This document shows positions 3 to 6,112 of a DNA stretch of 38,856 nt, piece after piece; position 1 is the stretch's first letter; every line of letters begins with the position of its first letter. The stretch is taken from the NCBI GenBank assembly GCA_946541955.1, contig CAMNJZ010000010.1, positions 1-38,856 on the forward strand, in the 5' to 3' direction. The notes under the pieces were generated by a model. The model saw nothing but the letters and a program-made list of their open reading frames with translations. It was not told where the DNA came from and searched no databases. The DNA comes from an uncultured Lachnospiraceae bacterium (GTDB taxonomy: Bacteria; Bacillota; Clostridia; Lachnospirales; Lachnospiraceae). The position numbers were made by a program, and so were the translations under genes.

Positions 3-3000
3 TCGCTCCTCATAAATGGGAATCTGATCGAATTCCTTGATCATCTGCCTGCAGAACCTGTAAATGCCGGGAAGATTGACGCCCCGCATTTCGATCAGGA
101 AACGGGTGCAGCGCTTCAGCCACTTCTGGTGAAGCTTTTCTACGGAGCCCTTGTGCTTCTCATAAGGGCGCATCCGGTAGATGCACTTCATCATGACATC
201 TCCGAAAACCAGACCCACCGCACAGCGGGAGATGGCCTTGAGTCCGATCTTAAAGCCGGGATTTTCCTCCAGGCCGGACAGGTTCGCCGAAATGACAGGG
301 ATCTGGCCCAGACCTGCCTTGGCCAGGGCTCTGCGGATAAAGCCTACATAGTTGGACGCTCTGCATCCGCCGCCGGTCTGAGACATGATGACAGCGACCT
401 TATTCAGGTCATATTTGCCGGAATCCAAAGCTTCCATGATCTGTCCGACCACGAAGAGCGAAGGATAGCAGGCGTCGTTATTGACGTATTTCAGGCCGTA
501 ATCCACTGCCTTGCGGTTGTCATTGGGCAGAACGACTACCTTGTAGCCGCAGCTGTTCAGAGCCGGCTCAAGAAGGTCAAAGTGAACAGGAGACATCTGC
601 GGGCAGAGAATGGTATAGCTGTCACGCATTTCCTCGGTAAAGACGACCTTCTTTATGGCTTCGGACCGGATGGTCCTTTTGGCCTTTTTCTTGTCACGGA
701 TCCGGATGGCGGCGATCAGGGATCTGACACGGATCCTGGCGCTGCCCAGGTTGTTTACTTCATCGATCTTGAGGCAGGTATAGATCTTGTCGGAACCGGA
801 CAGAATATCCTGCACCTGATCGGTGGTAACGGCGTCCAGACCGCAGCCGAAGGAATTGAGCTGGATCAGGTCCAGATCGTCCCGGGTCTTCACATAGGAT
901 GCGGCGGCATAGAGCCTGGAATGGTACATCCACTGATCAAGAACGACGATGGGCCGCTCAGGCCTCCCAAGATGGGAGATGGAATCCTCGGAAAGGACCG
1001 CGATTCCGTAGGAATTGATCATTTCCGGAATACCATGGTTGATTTCAGGGTCGATATGGTAAGGACGGCCGGCCAGGACAATGCCCTTGACATGGTTTTC
1101 CTCCATATATTGAAGGATCCGTTCGCCTTCCTTTTGAATATCGGCATGGACGGCGTTCAGCTCTTCCCAGCCTGCATGGACTGCCTGGCTGATTTCTTCA
1201 GCGGGAATCTCCTTGAATTCCCGGATCATGGCTTCCTTTACAGTCTCTTCGTTGGTAAAAGCCATGAAGGGATTGCGGAATTCCACTTCGCCCCTTCCGA
1301 TTTCCTCCACGTTGTTGCGGATGTTTTCGGAGTAGGAGGTGACGATCGGGCAGTTGTAATGGTTGTCCGCATCCTTTGTTTCCGTCCGTTCATAGAAAAG
1401 GGCGGGATAGAAAATAAAATCGACCTTCTGATTGATCAGCCACATGATATGGCCGTGGGCGATTTTTGCCGGATAGCAGGCGGACTCACTGGGAATGGAT
1501 TCGATGCCCATTTCATAGATCTTATGGGTCGAAAGAGGAGACAGGATGACCCTGTAGCCCAGTCTGGTAAAGAAGGTATACCAGAAGGGGTAGTCTTCAT
1601 ACATGTTGAGGACGCGGGGGATGCCCACGGTGCCTCGGACAGCCTGTTCCTTTTTCAGGGGCCTGTAGCCGAAGATCCGTCCGATCTTATATTTGTAGAT
1701 ATTGGGAATATTGTTCTGGGTCAGTTCCTTGCCCAGGCCACGCTCACAGCGGTTGCCGGAGATATATTCCCGTCCGCCGCTGAAGTGGTTGACTGTCAGA
1801 CGGCAGTTGTTGGTGCACTTGCCGCAGTTGCGCAGAGACGTTTCAAAGGTAAGGGTCTCGATTTCCTCCAGAGGAAGCATGGTGGTGGGAACGGAACCGT
1901 CATAGCGTTCTCTGGCGATCAGAGCCGCGCCGAAGGCGCCCATGATTCCTGCAATGTCCGGCCGGATGACCTTTCCGTCTGCGATGGTCTCCAGAGCCCG
2001 GAGGACGGCGTCATTATAGAAGGTTCCGCCCTGGACTACGATATTACGTCCCAGCTGGGAGGCGTCGGACACCTTGATGACCTTGAAGAGGGCGTTCTTA
2101 ATAACGGAGTAAGCCAGGCCTGCGGAGATATCCGAGACCTCGGCGCCCTCCTTCTGGGCCTGCTTGACACGGGAATTCATAAAGACGGTGCAGCGGGTCC
2201 CCAGGTCGATGGGATGCTCGGCAAAGAGAGCGGCCTTCGCAAAATCCTGGACGGTATAATCCAGGGACTTGGCAAAGGTCTCGATGAAGGAACCGCATCC
2301 GGAGGAGCAGGCTTCGTTCAGAAGAACGTTGTCTACGGCATGGTTGCGGATCCGGATACACTTCATGTCCTGTCCGCCGATATCCAGGATGCAGTCTACT
2401 TCGGGATTGAAGAAAGCCGCCGCATAATAGTGGGCGATGGTCTCGACTTCCCCTTCATCCAGCATGAAGGCGGCCTTTAAGAGAGCCTCTCCATAACCTG
2501 TGGAGCAGCTCCTTACGATTTTGGTATCTGGGGCCAGAAGGGTACGGATCTCCTTGATGGCGCCGATGGCTGTCATCAGGGGACTGCCGTTGTTATTGGA
2601 ATAGAAGGAATACAGGAGCCTTCCGTCTTCGCCGACGACGGCCAGCTTGGTCGTGGTGGAGCCGGCGTCGATTCCCAGAAAGCAGTTGCCGTGATAATCC
2701 TTTAAGGAGCCCTTCTTAACGGTCGCCTTTTCATGGCGCTCCAAAAAGGCCTCATATTCCTCTTTGCTTTCAAAGAGGGGATCCATGCGGCCGATCTCGA
2801 ATTCCATTTTGATTTCGCCGGACAAGCGGGAAGCCATTTCCGTCAGTGTCAGGAAGGTTTCCTCTTTGGCGTTCATGGCAGAGCCCATGGCGGCAAAGAG
2901 GTGGGAGTTTTCCACTTCGATGGTATGTTCCTCATCCAGCTTCAGGGTTCGGATAAAGGAAGCCTTCAGCTCGGTCAGGAAGTGGAGAGGGCCGCCAAGA

Positions 3001-3644
3001 AAAGCGACATGTCCCCGGATGGGCTTGCCGCAGGCCAGGCCGCTGATGGTCTGGTTGACGACGGACTGGAAGATGGAGGCGGCCAGGTCTTCCCTTGTGG
3101 CTCCATCGTTGATCAGAGGCTGAATATCTGATTTGGCGAAGACGCCGCATCTGGCAGCGATCGTATAGAGGGACCGATATCCTTTGGCATATTCGTTGAG
3201 TCCTGCTGCATCAGTCTGGAGCAGGGAAGCCATCTGGTCAATAAAGGAACCTGTACCGCCGGCGCAGATGCCGTTCATGCGCTGTTCCACATTTCCGTTT
3301 TCAAAATAAATGATCTTGGCGTCTTCTCCGCCAAGCTCGATTGCCACATCTGTCTTGGGTGCGAGTTCCTCCAGAGCAGTGGATACAGCAACGACCTCCT
3401 GTACAAAAGGAACCTTCAGGTAATTGGCCAGCGTCAGTCCGCCGGAACCTGTGATGACTGGATGTATGATGATGTCGCCAAGTCGGTCCTGGGCTTCGGA
3501 CAGAAGATCATAGAGGGTTTTGCGGATATCTGCATGATGCCTTCTGTAGTCAGCAAACATGATTTGGTACTGAGGGTCCAGGATCGCGATTTTTACAGTT
3601 GTGGAACCGATATCGATTCCAAGGGTATAATCTTTTGAAATCAC
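3..3644 (-). CDS. 2-hydroxyacyl-CoA dehydratase activase, long fused form (partial, 3' end outside window)
   Basis: ATP-dependent activator that injects a high-energy electron into 2-hydroxyacyl-CoA dehydratases, radical enzymes of amino-acid fermentation. The reading frame is open over 1214 codons from a GTG start preceded by AGGAG, and it runs off the left edge. Two ASKHA ATPase units are visible. The first (about residues 1-300) begins with LGIDIGSTTVK and carries Cys127 in NGICAGGTGSF and Cys166 in AARCGVF, the two cluster ligands and spacing known from HgdC. The second (about 316-600) begins with GIDAGSTTTKL and has CSSGCGSF and RCTVFMNS. A cysteine cluster RNCGKCTNNCR follows near residue 605, then a DUF2229-like and HgdB-like C-terminal part. 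No dehydratase alpha/beta genes are in view, so the substrate is unknown. The family call is firm; the role of the C-terminal half is inferred. Confidence 0.93.
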   Translation of the reverse strand, partial: MISKDYTLGIDIGSTTVKIAILDPQYQIMFADYRRHHADIRKTLYDLLSEAQDRLGDIIIHPVITGSGGLTLANYLKVPFVQEVVAVSTALEELAPKTDVAIELGGEDAKIIYFENGNVEQRMNGICAGGTGSFIDQMASLLQTDAAGLNEYAKGYRSLYTIAARCGVFAKSDIQPLINDGATREDLAASIFQSVVNQTISGLACGKPIRGHVAFLGGPLHFLTELKASFIRTLKLDEEHTIEVENSHLFAAMGSAMNAKEETFLTLTEMASRLSGEIKMEFEIGRMDPLFESKEEYEAFLERHEKATVKKGSLKDYHGNCFLGIDAGSTTTKLAVVGEDGRLLYSFYSNNNGSPLMTAIGAIKEIRTLLAPDTKIVRSCSTGYGEALLKAAFMLDEGEVETIAHYYAAAFFNPEVDCILDIGGQDMKCIRIRNHAVDNVLLNEACSSGCGSFIETFAKSLDYTVQDFAKAALFAEHPIDLGTRCTVFMNSRVKQAQKEGAEVSDISAGLAYSVIKNALFKVIKVSDASQLGRNIVVQGGTFYNDAVLRALETIADGKVIRPDIAGIMGAFGAALIARERYDGSVPTTMLPLEEIETLTFETSLRNCGKCTNNCRLTVNHFSGGREYISGNRCERGLGKELTQNNIPNIYKYKIGRIFGYRPLKKEQAVRGTVGIPRVLNMYEDYPFWYTFFTRLGYRVILSPLSTHKIYEMGIESIPSESACYPAKIAHGHIMWLINQKVDFIFYPALFYERTETKDADNHYNCPIVTSYSENIRNNVEEIGRGEVEFRNPFMAFTNEETVKEAMIREFKEIPAEEISQAVHAGWEELNAVHADIQKEGERILQYMEENHVKGIVLAGRPYHIDPEINHGIPEMINSYGIAVLSEDSISHLGRPERPIVVLDQWMYHSRLYAAASYVKTRDDLDLIQLNSFGCGLDAVTTDQVQDILSGSDKIYTCLKIDEVNNLGSARIRVRSLIAAIRIRDKKKAKRTIRSEAIKKVVFTEEMRDSYTILCPQMSPVHFDLLEPALNSCGYKVVVLPNDNRKAVDYGLKYVNNDACYPSLFVVGQIMEALDSGKYDLNKVAVIMSQTGGGCRASNYVGFIRRALAKAGLGQIPVISANLSGLEENPGFKIGLKAISRCAVGLVFGDVMMKCIYRMRPYEKHKGSVEKLHQKWLKRCTRFLIEMRGVNLPGIYRFCRQMIKEFDQIPIYEER

Positions 3645-3724
3645 TGAATTTCTCCTACAGATAACAGTAACGGGTATATAAAAATCCGATACGGAATAAA
3701 AACTAATCAAGTGTATAGTCAGAT

Positions 3725-3754
3725 GCAATTATATGACAGTGTCATAAAAATTGC
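3725..3754. promoter_or_regulatory. Candidate operator palindrome inside the activase promoter
   Basis: A perfect 7-1-7 palindrome, TATGACA-G-TGTCATA (3732-3746), is extended by matching outer arms GCAATT (3725-3730) and AATTGC (3749-3754). It lies between and over the -35 and -10 elements, the classic place for a repressor to block RNA polymerase. The core TGACA-N-TGTCA is not one I can assign to a named regulator family. Confidence 0.6.
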
Positions 3755-3881: not shown

Positions 3882-3938
3882 ATCACGATACCCCATTTTA
3901 TGACAGGGGACAAACTGCGCAATTTGAGGAATTGTAAA

Positions 3939-4850
3939 ATGAGTGATTTTGAAAAGAAATTCGGCAGGTATGCTGTCCGAAATCTGTCTTCGGTACTGAT
4001 CGGTCTCTATATACTTGGCTATCTGGTCCTTTTAGTCGCGCCGGGGGCCATGAATTATCTGACCCTGGATCCCTATAAGATCATGCACGGTCAGGTCTGG
4101 AGAATTGTGACCTGGCTCCTGAATCCCCCTACCGGCGTTGACGGCGGGAATCTGATCTTTGTTATGATCATGCTCTTTTTCTACTACAGCATAGGAACCT
4201 CGCTGGAGCGGGTCTGGGGAACCTACCGTTACAATGTCTTCATATTTACAGGTATTCTGCTGACGGTGGTTTCTTCCTTCCTCTGGCTGGGATTTTCTTA
4301 TCTGACAGGGATCGCCGGATCGGCCTATGCGTCAGATTACTTTGCATCCTATGCCCTGTATGCCTTTTCAACATATTATATCAATATGTCCATTTTCCTG
4401 GCCTATGCCCTGACCTTCCCGGAAGCCCAGGTGCTTCTTATGTTTGTCATTCCCGTCAAGGTCAAGTGGCTGGGCATTGCAGACCTGGTCTATCTGGTTT
4501 ACTGCCTGCTGCGCTATCCTGCTCCCTACCGATTTGTGATCGCAGCGGCCCTGATCGATGTTCTGATCCTCTGGCTCAGGGCAGGCGGCTGGATGCGGAT
4601 CTCACCGGCCCAGGTGCACAGAAGGCAGAGCTTTAAACGGAGCGTAAAGACCGCTTCGGCAGGCCGGACAGGAGGCGGGGCCATGCACCGCTGTGCCATC
4701 TGTGGAAGAACGGAGGCGGACAATCCCAATCTGGAATTCCGTTACTGCTCCAAGTGCGAGGGCAGCTATGAATACTGCTCCGATCATTTATTTACGCATG
4801 TTCACGTCAAAGCGGGGGAAGCGCCCCGGATCAAGGCGCCCGAAAGGTAG
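3939..4850 (+). CDS. Rhomboid-like integral membrane protein with C-terminal zinc-ribbon-like tail
   Basis: A 303-residue protein. The ATG at 3939 has GAGGA eight bases upstream and is preferred to an in-frame ATG at 3900. The first 220 residues hold about six hydrophobic segments with rhomboid-fold hallmarks: GQVWRIVTWL near 51-60 (the L1-loop WR motif) and GTSLERVWGTYRYNVF near 86-101. The catalytic GxSG serine motif of rhomboid proteases is absent where the fourth helix should be, so this looks like a pseudoprotease of the rhomboid/Derlin kind. A basic linker (about 228-245) leads to a cytoplasmic tail with Cys252, Cys255, Cys270, Cys273, Cys280, His283, His287 and His289, a likely zinc ribbon. 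It starts a unit with the sigma-like gene 17 bp downstream. Function unknown; a role as membrane scaffold or client-binding protein is inference. Confidence 0.8.
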   Translation: MSDFEKKFGRYAVRNLSSVLIGLYILGYLVLLVAPGAMNYLTLDPYKIMHGQVWRIVTWLLNPPTGVDGGNLIFVMIMLFFYYSIGTSLERVWGTYRYNVFIFTGILLTVVSSFLWLGFSYLTGIAGSAYASDYFASYALYAFSTYYINMSIFLAYALTFPEAQVLLMFVIPVKVKWLGIADLVYLVYCLLRYPAPYRFVIAAALIDVLILWLRAGGWMRISPAQVHRRQSFKRSVKTASAGRTGGGAMHRCAICGRTEADNPNLEFRYCSKCEGSYEYCSDHLFTHVHVKAGEAPRIKAPER

Positions 4851-4867: not shown

Positions 4868-5626
4868 ATGAGTGATACCATACAGCAGGAACAGCTGTTT
4901 TTGAAAAAGCTCCAGGCCCTGGTGGCGCTGGCAAGAAAAAAGGGCAATACCATTACGGAGGAAGAGGTCCGGGACCATTTCCAGGGACTGGATCTGTCCG
5001 ACGCCCAGATGGATCAGGTGAAGGCCTATCTGAAAGCTCAGAAGATCGGAATCGGGCAGCCTCTCCAGTATGAGGATGTCATTACGGAAGAAGAGCACAA
5101 CTATATGGAGGATTATGAGGCCATGATCCGTGCTCTGCCTGTACTTCCGGAGGGTGTTCTGGAAGCGGCCAAGATCTCGGCCATGGCAGGAGAGAGGGAG
5201 GCCCAGAAGACTCTGACAGAGGCCATGCTGACCAAAGTGATCGATATAGCCAGACTCTATGCCGGGCAGGGAGTAATGATGGAGGACCTGATCGGCGGCG
5301 GAAACGAGGCCCTGGCAGTGGGCGTGACTTTGCTGGCCCCTCTGGAAGGGCCCGGTGAAGTGGAAGGCTTCCTCGGAAAAAGAATCATGGACACCATGGA
5401 AGATATGATTGCTGCGAACATGGACGACAAGGCCAATGACAGGGCTGTTGAGGAGAAGGTCAACCGGGTGGCGGACAAGGCCAGAGAACTGGCCGGCGAA
5501 CTGATGCGGAAGGTCACGCCGGAGGAGCTGGCCCGGGAAGGGGAACTGAGCCTGGAGGAGATCCTGGAGGCGGTCCGTTTTTCCGGCGGTAAGATCGAAG
5601 ACCTGGAATCTGTGGGAAAGGACTGA
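4868..5626 (+). CDS. Sigma-70-like protein with regions 1.1, 2 and 3 but no recognisable promoter-binding residues or region 4
   Basis: A 252-residue protein. Residues 15-62 resemble sigma region 1.1. Residues 97-157 match region 1.2/2.1-2.2, including DIARLYAGQGVMMEDLIGGG, where primary sigmas have SIAKKYxGRGxxFLDLIQEG; this is the core-polymerase-binding helix. By eye, residues 158-195 align almost without gaps to regions 2.3-2.4, yet the melting and -10-reading aromatic, Gln and Arg residues are gone and the stretch is acidic (GPGEVEGFLG, MEDMIAANMDD). Residues 193-247 follow region 3 (ELMRKVTPEELAREGELSLEEILEAV against ELGREPTPEEIA). Region 4 is absent. It may bind RNA polymerase without promoter recognition. 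The resemblance is seen in the sequence; the function is inferred. It sits in a unit with the rhomboid-like gene upstream and an unknown gene 13 bp downstream. Confidence 0.75.
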   Translation: MSDTIQQEQLFLKKLQALVALARKKGNTITEEEVRDHFQGLDLSDAQMDQVKAYLKAQKIGIGQPLQYEDVITEEEHNYMEDYEAMIRALPVLPEGVLEAAKISAMAGEREAQKTLTEAMLTKVIDIARLYAGQGVMMEDLIGGGNEALAVGVTLLAPLEGPGEVEGFLGKRIMDTMEDMIAANMDDKANDRAVEEKVNRVADKARELAGELMRKVTPEELAREGELSLEEILEAVRFSGGKIEDLESVGKD

Positions 5627-5639
5627 AACAGGAAGTAAG

Positions 5640-6059
5640 ATGAATCAGCAGTACGAAGATTTCAAATATGTAATAGCCGATCTCAGCAGAATCTATTTCG
5701 GCGCCAGATACTCTTACCGGGAGCTGACAGCCAGTGAAGACGTCACTTTCAAGCTCAGAATGATCTTCAGGACCTGGATGCTCCGCGAGGTGGAGGAAGA
5801 TACCACCCTGGAGAGCCATTTATACTATATGGAAAAGGGCTCTCTGTCCTATGATGTATTTCATCAGCTTGGCGCCAAAGTCAGGGTCAGCTATCCTGTC
5901 TACAGGGGACTTCCGGGCAGGCAGGAGAAGGTTTATTCGGAGAAGATTCTGTTCCTGTCCGAACTGGCTGCCATGACGCCGGAGGAAAAGACAAAGAAGG
6001 GGCTGCTGATCCGGGAGCTGCAGATCTCAAAGCTGCGCCTGATGCAGTTCGCTTTATAA
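5640..6059 (+). CDS. Uncharacterised 139-residue cytosolic protein
   Basis: The ATG follows an AGGAAGTAAG ribosome site and lies 13 bp after the sigma-like gene, so the two are probably co-translated. The product is mixed alpha/beta in appearance, has no signal peptide or membrane segment, and has no cysteine cluster. Its aromatic-rich N-terminus (FKYVIADLSRIYFGARYSY) and a Lys/Arg/Leu-rich C-terminal helix (about 118-139) are the only distinctive parts. I do not recognise a characterised family, although the style is that of small conserved clostridial proteins. A strong terminator follows it, which closes the unit ahead of recA. Confidence 0.75.
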   Translation: MNQQYEDFKYVIADLSRIYFGARYSYRELTASEDVTFKLRMIFRTWMLREVEEDTTLESHLYYMEKGSLSYDVFHQLGAKVRVSYPVYRGLPGRQEKVYSEKILFLSELAAMTPEEKTKKGLLIRELQISKLRLMQFAL

Positions 6060-6081: not shown

Positions 6082-6112
6082 AGTCGGGTGTCCTGGACAC
6101 TCGACTTTTTTT
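6082..6112 (+). terminator. Rho-independent terminator closing the sigma-like gene unit
   Basis: Stem AGTCGGGTG (6082-6090) pairs with CACTCGACT (6098-6106), with one G-T pair and a seven-base loop, followed by a run of T to 6112. Confidence 0.85.

Follow-up and report, generated by a model that had tools for sequence, protein, structure and literature searches.

A paralogue of the primary sigma factor from Lachnospiraceae that lacks region 4 and the promoter-reading residues

The window, that is, the whole stretch of DNA analyzed here, comprises 38,856 nucleotides (contig CAMNJZ010000010.1, assembly GCA_946541955.1) from an uncultured Lachnospiraceae bacterium. One of its open reading frames (ORFs) encodes a protein, here called pseudo-sigma, which is laid out as sigma regions 1.1, 1.2 to 2.2, an altered 2.3-2.4, and 3 (Table 1). 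The gene lies between those of a membrane protein, memb316, and a small partner protein, P139, and all three are encoded on the same strand. An earlier note had described pseudo-sigma as a sigma-70 paralogue stripped of promoter recognition, and the coordinates, the length of 252 residues and the core-binding stretch that it quoted are all exact.

Table 1. Coordinates of pseudo-sigma, its regions and the neighboring features in the window
Feature	Position	Strand	Basis
Pseudo-sigma, 252 residues, 27.8 kDa, computed isoelectric point 4.5	4868..5626	+	ORF, profile matches, predicted fold, alignment
Sigma region 1.1, codons of residues 13-67	4904..5068	+	PF03979, 30.6 bits (cut-off 22.5)
Regions 1.2 to 2.2, codons of residues 74-155; core-facing part in RpoD	5087..5332	+	SigA match, sigma-2 fold, alignment
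Place of regions 2.3-2.4, codons of residues 156-195; aromatic and basic residues replaced, acidic	5333..5452	+	Alignment
Region 3, codons of residues 196-237	5453..5578	+	PF04539, 26.5 bits (cut-off 25.3)
memb316, 316-residue membrane protein, weakly rhomboid/derlin-like, with Cys/His zinc-finger-like C-terminal tail	3900..4850	+	Profiles, alignment
P139, 139-residue partner, no Pfam family	5640..6059	+	ORF, co-occurrence, predicted fold
Terminator-like hairpin followed by a T run	6082..6106	+	Pattern match only

Pseudo-sigma is related to primary sigma factors by several independent comparisons. The Pfam models Sigma70_r1_1 (expectation value, E, of 3.4e-7) and Sigma70_r3 (E 6.9e-6) match above their curated cut-offs, and the top NCBIfam model is that of RpoD, NF006666 (E 1.5e-11, best stretch residues 106-237), with a score of 44 bits that is far below the model cut-off of 572. 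The 25 NCBIfam models listed, of 44 matched, are all those of sigma factors, and none of the 25 is specific to the pseudo-sigma family. SigA of Bacillus subtilis (7ckq) matches residues 99-240 with an E of 2.2e-8 in phmmer, and SigA of Clostridioides difficile (7l7b) is reached at 8.3e-38 by a profile of 41 pseudo-sigma relatives. These matches to sigma regions and to RpoD/SigA are significant and speak against the refutation named in the earlier note, a lack of significant profile matches to regions 2 and 3, although Sigma70_r2, the Pfam model of region 2, gives by itself no match to pseudo-sigma of the window up to an E of 1. This model matches 57 of 65 members of the family and the region 1.1 model (PF03979) matches 52 of 65, both at E up to 0.1. 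Most of the aligned rows cover residues 74-240, which leaves the Pfam match as the basis for region 1.1. The predicted fold is sigma-like, as had been anticipated, with residues 74-240 matching sigma and including a sigma-2 domain fold; whole-chain TM-scores in Foldseek are low (best 0.34-0.36) because the domains are arranged differently. Elsewhere, the source genome encodes an ordinary RpoD of full length and has four more region 2 matches above cut-off, which identifies pseudo-sigma as an extra paralogue. Together, the sequence matches and the predicted model support the derivation of pseudo-sigma from a primary sigma factor, in agreement with the descent from a full sigma factor first proposed.

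We aligned 22 RpoD sequences with 60 rows from the clade of the window protein (clade 1) and 46 rows from a sister group (clade 2). The RpoD rows comprise 17 from Lachnospiraceae, two of them from one genome, and 5 from other families. Twenty of the clade 1 rows (L076-L095) are from the genus of the window, and as one locus was taken twice (L031 and L094), the 60 rows represent 59 distinct loci. Clade 2 consists of six loci with about 30% identity and no cassette (L063-L068) and 40 loci from lower-scoring hits of a profile designated A3. Across regions 2.1-2.2, clade 1 and clade 2 have on average 44% and 46% identity to the RpoD consensus, respectively, and across regions 2.3-2.4 only 10% and 14%. 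The Trp pair (positions 197 and 198 in the numbering of RpoD, used hereafter), found in 22/22 RpoD rows, is present in 1/60 and 0/60 rows of clade 1 and in 0/46 and 0/46 rows of clade 2. Thr193, Thr196, Thr204, Arg205, Arg212, Arg215 and His219 are each retained in at most 5/60 clade 1 and 6/46 clade 2 rows, and Tyr194 in 5/60 and 15/46. The mean number of aromatic residues in regions 2.3-2.4 falls from 7.0 in RpoD to 0.9 in clade 1 and 2.0 in clade 2, while the mean charge changes from +4.5 to -6.3 and -4.1, respectively. The residues with which sigma-70 proteins melt and recognize the -10 element are consequently missing from nearly all rows of both clades, bearing out the loss initially noticed by eye, and the spacing from regions 2.3-2.4 into region 3 is indeed kept within one or two residues of that in RpoD.

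Region 4 is also missing. No match to region 4 (PF04545) was found with Pfam in the window protein, whose chain stops right after region 3 without a sigma-4 domain, as had been claimed. There is no region 3.2 finger: in RpoD columns 284 to 293, the last aligned, 83-100% of the rows of both clades are empty, and the window protein has already ended. An ordinary sigma factor with an overlooked region 4 can be ruled out, as the frame stops after region 3 here and likewise in most relatives. Based on established sigma biology, pseudo-sigma should neither read nor melt promoters. With the -10 residues lost and region 4 absent, we infer from the sequence that it cannot serve as an ordinary sigma factor. 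Several clade 2 proteins (L097, L104, L106, L117 and L118) carry His- or Cys/His-rich C-terminal tails that are metal-binding in appearance.

The region 2.2 residues that face core polymerase in RpoD present a different picture. Asp167 is retained in 55/60 rows of clade 1 and 46/46 of clade 2, Leu168 in 60/60 and 42/46, Ile169 in 56/60 and 38/46, Gly172 in 59/60 and 43/46, Asn173 in 60/60 and 46/46, and Leu176 in 58/60 and 44/46. The core-binding stretch had been called well preserved; this holds for Asp167, Leu168, Ile169, Gly172 and Asn173, which are near-invariant in clade 1, but not for Gln170 or Leu166, which in the window protein are replaced by Gly and Glu, respectively.

Homologs of pseudo-sigma were found only in the Lachnospiraceae among the matches above our cut. 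Within the genus of the window, 35 of 37 genomes have matches at an E of 1.9e-44 or better, and the other two (G005 and G025) have weak or fragmentary matches only. Among 299 Lachnospiraceae genomes, sampled at nearly one per genus, a single-sequence search at 1e-20 identified 51. A profile designated A6, with its cut set above the 22 RpoD controls (174-205 bits), identified 94 of the 299 genomes, or 93 of the 298 sampled genera; the match in one of these genomes (G286) lies within a 745-residue frame. Members that score less than about 211 bits escape A6 (a short row of clade 1 has only 146), and the family may therefore be more prevalent than this count. Profile A3, which A6 replaced, matches 295 of the 299 genomes with RpoD included and is of no use for prevalence. 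In a sample of 196 genomes from the order, all 13 matches above the A6 cut are from Lachnospiraceae, and among the matches listed the remainder score 203 bits or less and lie in frames 334-397 residues long, which fits RpoD. Only 2 matches, both from Lachnospiraceae, exceed the cut in a sample of 239 genomes from the phylum. The stated source of one of five Lachnospiraceae assemblies that carry pseudo-sigma is roe deer omasum.

In an unrooted tree of 16 of the 22 RpoD rows, 25 of the 60 clade 1 rows and 34 of the 46 clade 2 rows, RpoD forms a group with a Shimodaira-Hasegawa-like approximate likelihood ratio (SH-aLRT) of 100, clade 1 makes up one side of a branch with an SH-aLRT of 89, and clade 2 does not form one group. 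The branches of pseudo-sigma are long relative to those of RpoD. The tree is compatible with a single origin of pseudo-sigma from RpoD. Five close pairs give ratios of nonsynonymous to synonymous substitution rates (dN/dS) of 0.069-0.159; in the more distant pairs, some regions approach saturation with synonymous changes. In one Lachnospiraceae genome (G127, locus L157), two complete RpoD genes lie side by side and each encodes the Trp pair, which may provide a picture of how such paralogues begin.

In the window, the end of memb316 is separated from pseudo-sigma by 17 bases, and pseudo-sigma from P139 by 13 bases. The hairpin after P139 would end a memb316-pseudo-sigma-P139 transcript before recA, but such hairpins occur near chance level (3 found, 2.3 expected in shuffled sequences). 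A memb316 gene is found on the same strand about 1 kb upstream (at most 1.6 kb centre to centre) in 58/59 fetched clade 1 loci and 2/46 clade 2 loci, a contrast that is partly built in, as the six loci L063-L068 were chosen without the cassette. P139 lies within 1.5 kb downstream in 48/59 fetched clade 1 loci and 0/46 clade 2 loci. Among the 299 Lachnospiraceae genomes, P139 is present in 38, and 37 of these are among the 45 genomes taken as clade 1 (the 51 single-sequence hits minus six of clade 2; 9 of the 45 are not among the fetched loci). The exception, G188, is 69% complete and has no A3 match even for RpoD, so that absence there is weak evidence. In the same genome (L139), a gene for an SRP54-type GTPase (FtsY-like) lies between memb316 and P139. 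We consider the co-occurrence of P139 a stronger sign of shared function than the linkage of memb316, with the reservation that both sets of counts ignore the shared ancestry of the genomes.

Regarding the two partners, no Pfam family scores above cut-off for the 316-residue memb316 of the window. Similarity to rhomboid proteins is weak, with PF01694 matched in 1 of 29 members (0.072) and DER1 in 2 of 29, and the GlpG homolog 2nr9 matched at an E of 0.026. No rhomboid catalytic serine motif was seen by eye in an alignment of memb316 (A4), in which the C-terminal Cys/His finger is near-invariant. The structural model of P139 has the predicted fold of the flavin adenine dinucleotide (FAD)-binding domain of molybdenum hydroxylases; no match to that family was found with 28 members (E up to 0.1) or with a profile against Protein Data Bank sequences (E up to 10), and P139 has no match to sigma region 4.

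Downstream of the cassette, the 35 loci from outside the genus of the window often harbor genes that encode an M16C peptidase (in 29 loci), Era (in 26) and RecO (in 20), names that were assigned by identifying one example of each. In the genus itself, recA is found in this position in 19 of 20 fetched loci, as it is in the window. Among 20 loci with memb316 alone, inspected by eye, an M16C-like gene directly follows memb316 in 2 (L141 and L149) and a pyruvate kinase-like gene in 7. The memb316-M16C order in such loci raises the possibility that the memb316 linkage is one old arrangement, inherited vertically. No neighbor is conserved in more than 8 of the 46 clade 2 loci. At the start of the window, a divergent gene for a large coenzyme A (CoA)-enzyme activase-type protein (BcrAD_BadFG and DUF2229 domains; positions 3-3728, minus strand) extends beyond the window. 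In 27 of the 35 cassette loci from outside the genus, a frame judged similar by eye is located upstream, on the opposite strand. With Rfam at the gathering score, only two tRNAs were found in the window.

Pseudo-sigma can be compared with several known systems. It shares with group 1 RpoD/SigA region 1.1, the 1.2-2.2 fold and region 3, with their order and spacing unchanged, and differs in the absence of the 3.2 finger, region 4 and the -10 aromatic and basic residues, and in its acidic surface. An excerpt of PMC4598750 states that all members of the sigma-70 family have sigma2 and sigma4 and that sigma 1.1 occurs in primary sigma factors only. Defined in this manner, the sigma-70 family does not include pseudo-sigma. 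PhyR of the EcfG/NepR general stress response, as described in the same excerpt, likewise has a sigma-like domain without the role of a sigma factor. However, PhyR combines sigma2- and sigma4-like parts of the extracytoplasmic function type with a receiver domain, whereas pseudo-sigma comes from a primary sigma factor with region 1.1, and Pfam detects no receiver domain across its 252 residues. The delta subunit (RpoE) of Firmicutes is acidic and has a part related to sigma 1.1 (part of PMC7749165), but it ends in a disordered acidic tail where pseudo-sigma has a sigma-2/3 body, and HARE-HTH (PF05066) is not matched in pseudo-sigma at E up to 1. With HelD and other hibernation or recycling factors, pseudo-sigma would share the outcome that polymerase is kept off DNA (passages of PMC11102965), although HelD is a helicase-like nucleoside triphosphatase and no relative of sigma. 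MzaA, a sigma-70 family protein of the MZA anti-phage system, gives a local match over regions 1.2-2.2 (NCBIfam 1.2e-6; PADLOC 1.1e-4), but only 44-72 residues of models with 683-726 positions are matched and RpoD scores better. We dropped a link to anti-phage defense via MzaA, the matches being weak and local. By the features tested, pseudo-sigma is not a PhyR, delta or split-sigma protein and works at most like a sigma mimic. Among the papers listed in searches of the open-licence text of PubMed Central, none was recognized as describing the family. Its recurrence in many Lachnospiraceae suggests that RNA polymerase is controlled here in a manner not yet described.

Relatedness, loss, conservation and linkage are supported directly by these comparisons; binding, competition and control are steps that we infer. 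Our preferred, still tentative interpretation, to which we assign a probability of roughly 0.4, is that pseudo-sigma mimics sigma-2, occupies core polymerase and competes reversibly with sigma-A, without recognizing promoters. It would dock on the clamp of core RNA polymerase via its 2.1-2.2 face, as sigma does, and its acidic region 1.1 and acidified 2.3-2.4 surface would exclude DNA rather than admit it. Parts of PMC4598750 and PMC7749165 describe, respectively, region 1.1 of primary sigma factors as an acidic DNA mimic in the channel, and delta as a subunit whose acidic tail competes for the channel and whose N-terminal domain resembles sigma 1.1. The competitor is favored because a sigma-2 face is usable without DNA reading, finger or region 4, and because region 1.1 and delta provide examples of acidic parts in the channel. 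No delta subunit (HARE-HTH, PF05066) was found in the source genome, which is 85% complete, at E up to 0.001. The role of pseudo-sigma would then be to hold, store or recycle polymerase and not to confer promoter specificity. In the clade of the window, P139 and memb316 might control pseudo-sigma, for instance by retaining it at the membrane, and this clade may have been retargeted to one of the two.

Several observations weigh against this interpretation. Gln170 is found in 0/60 clade 1 rows (mostly Gly, as in the window protein) and in 42/46 of clade 2; Glu171 is found in 32/60 and 46/46, respectively; and Leu166 is replaced by Glu in the window protein and 95% of clade 1, with clade 2 also lacking Leu. 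We take these positions to be Q406, E407 and L402 of Escherichia coli, presumably members of the contact set between sigma-70 and core. The changes imply that core binding in clade 1 may be weak or lost. Furthermore, region 4 (PF04545) is matched in 6 of the 65 members of the family (E up to 0.1), P139 is not seen within 1.5 kb in 11 of 59 fetched clade 1 loci, and memb316, found in 285 of the 299 Lachnospiraceae genomes and far commoner than pseudo-sigma, must have another job. Judging from the sequence contrast at Gln170 and Glu171, clade 2 appears better equipped to bind core, and the partner of clade 1, with the window protein, may have changed.

As two presumed core contacts are changed, a partner other than polymerase is a serious rival. 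Here the fold would be a bait surface for P139, the memb316 tail or an anti-sigma factor, and regulation would be indirect, with a precedent in PhyR, which is documented to mimic sigma and to bind an anti-sigma factor (PMC4598750, in part). The clade in which the Gln is changed is also the clade with the cassette, and nearly all genomes with P139 belong to it. The near-invariance of Asp167, Leu168, Ile169, Gly172 and Asn173 (55-60 of 60 rows) would however suit a retained polymerase surface, and the memb316 linkage may reflect old vertical inheritance, with the M16C-like gene after memb316 in L141 and L149. We regard this rival as possible, if somewhat unlikely.

Pseudo-sigma could alternatively be an adaptor that holds core while the zinc-finger tail of memb316 holds pseudo-sigma, which would place polymerase at the membrane. 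The near-constant position of memb316 upstream in clade 1, its conserved Cys/His tail and the short gaps among the three window genes are in line with this. Such a tether is nevertheless improbable, as 44 of the 46 clade 2 loci have no memb316 alongside, memb316 is present in most genomes irrespective of pseudo-sigma, and the cytosolic position of its tail is an assumption. Some sigma factors consist of two subunits with region 4 on a separate protein, as in SigO and RsoA of B. subtilis, and pseudo-sigma has regions 1 to 3 without region 4. That it is half of such a pair is very doubtful: a region 4 partner would not restore recognition with the -10-reading residues gone, no region 4 gene is found next to it (P139 then recA downstream, memb316 upstream), and P139 has instead the modeled fold of a flavoprotein domain. 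A decaying, functionless RpoD duplicate, which the fast evolution relative to RpoD might suggest, is scarcely credible in view of open frames across many genera, dN/dS values of 0.07-0.16, near-invariant residues and the co-occurrence with P139.

The competitor interpretation can be extended to a scenario that, taken as a whole, we find rather unlikely: a duplicated RpoD lost region 4, its DNA-reading surface became acidic and DNA-excluding to yield an anti-initiation or storage subunit, and one branch was retargeted and wired to memb316 and P139, a former flavoprotein domain, so that polymerase availability would be tied to a membrane or redox signal in a control system dispersed across the Lachnospiraceae. 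Region 1.1 and sigma2/3 occur together in this family, which has neither sigma4 nor -10 reading. Should it bind core polymerase, the bacteria that encode it possess an inhibitor or storage factor derived from sigma; with another partner, it would be a mimic that arose from a primary sigma factor. In annotation, the resemblance of such genes to RpoD in profile searches could lead to their being taken for sigma factors.

A search of a phage collection with tblastn identified five records, all with less than 60% identity. We rejected a phage origin, as three of the five records, those examined, look like bacterial scaffolds deposited as phage. These three (MT837372, MT836790 and MT839976; L196-L198) are GenBank "Bacteriophage sp." scaffolds from human faeces with housekeeping-like neighbors. 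A scan of viral_contigs gave at least 14 weak matches. MT837372 encodes a pseudo-sigma relative (241 bits with A6) beside frames that by eye resemble ribonucleotide reductase, mutY and homoaconitase genes, and the other two of these three scaffolds have frames of RpoD length (386-389 residues, 166-192 bits) beside dnaG-like frames.
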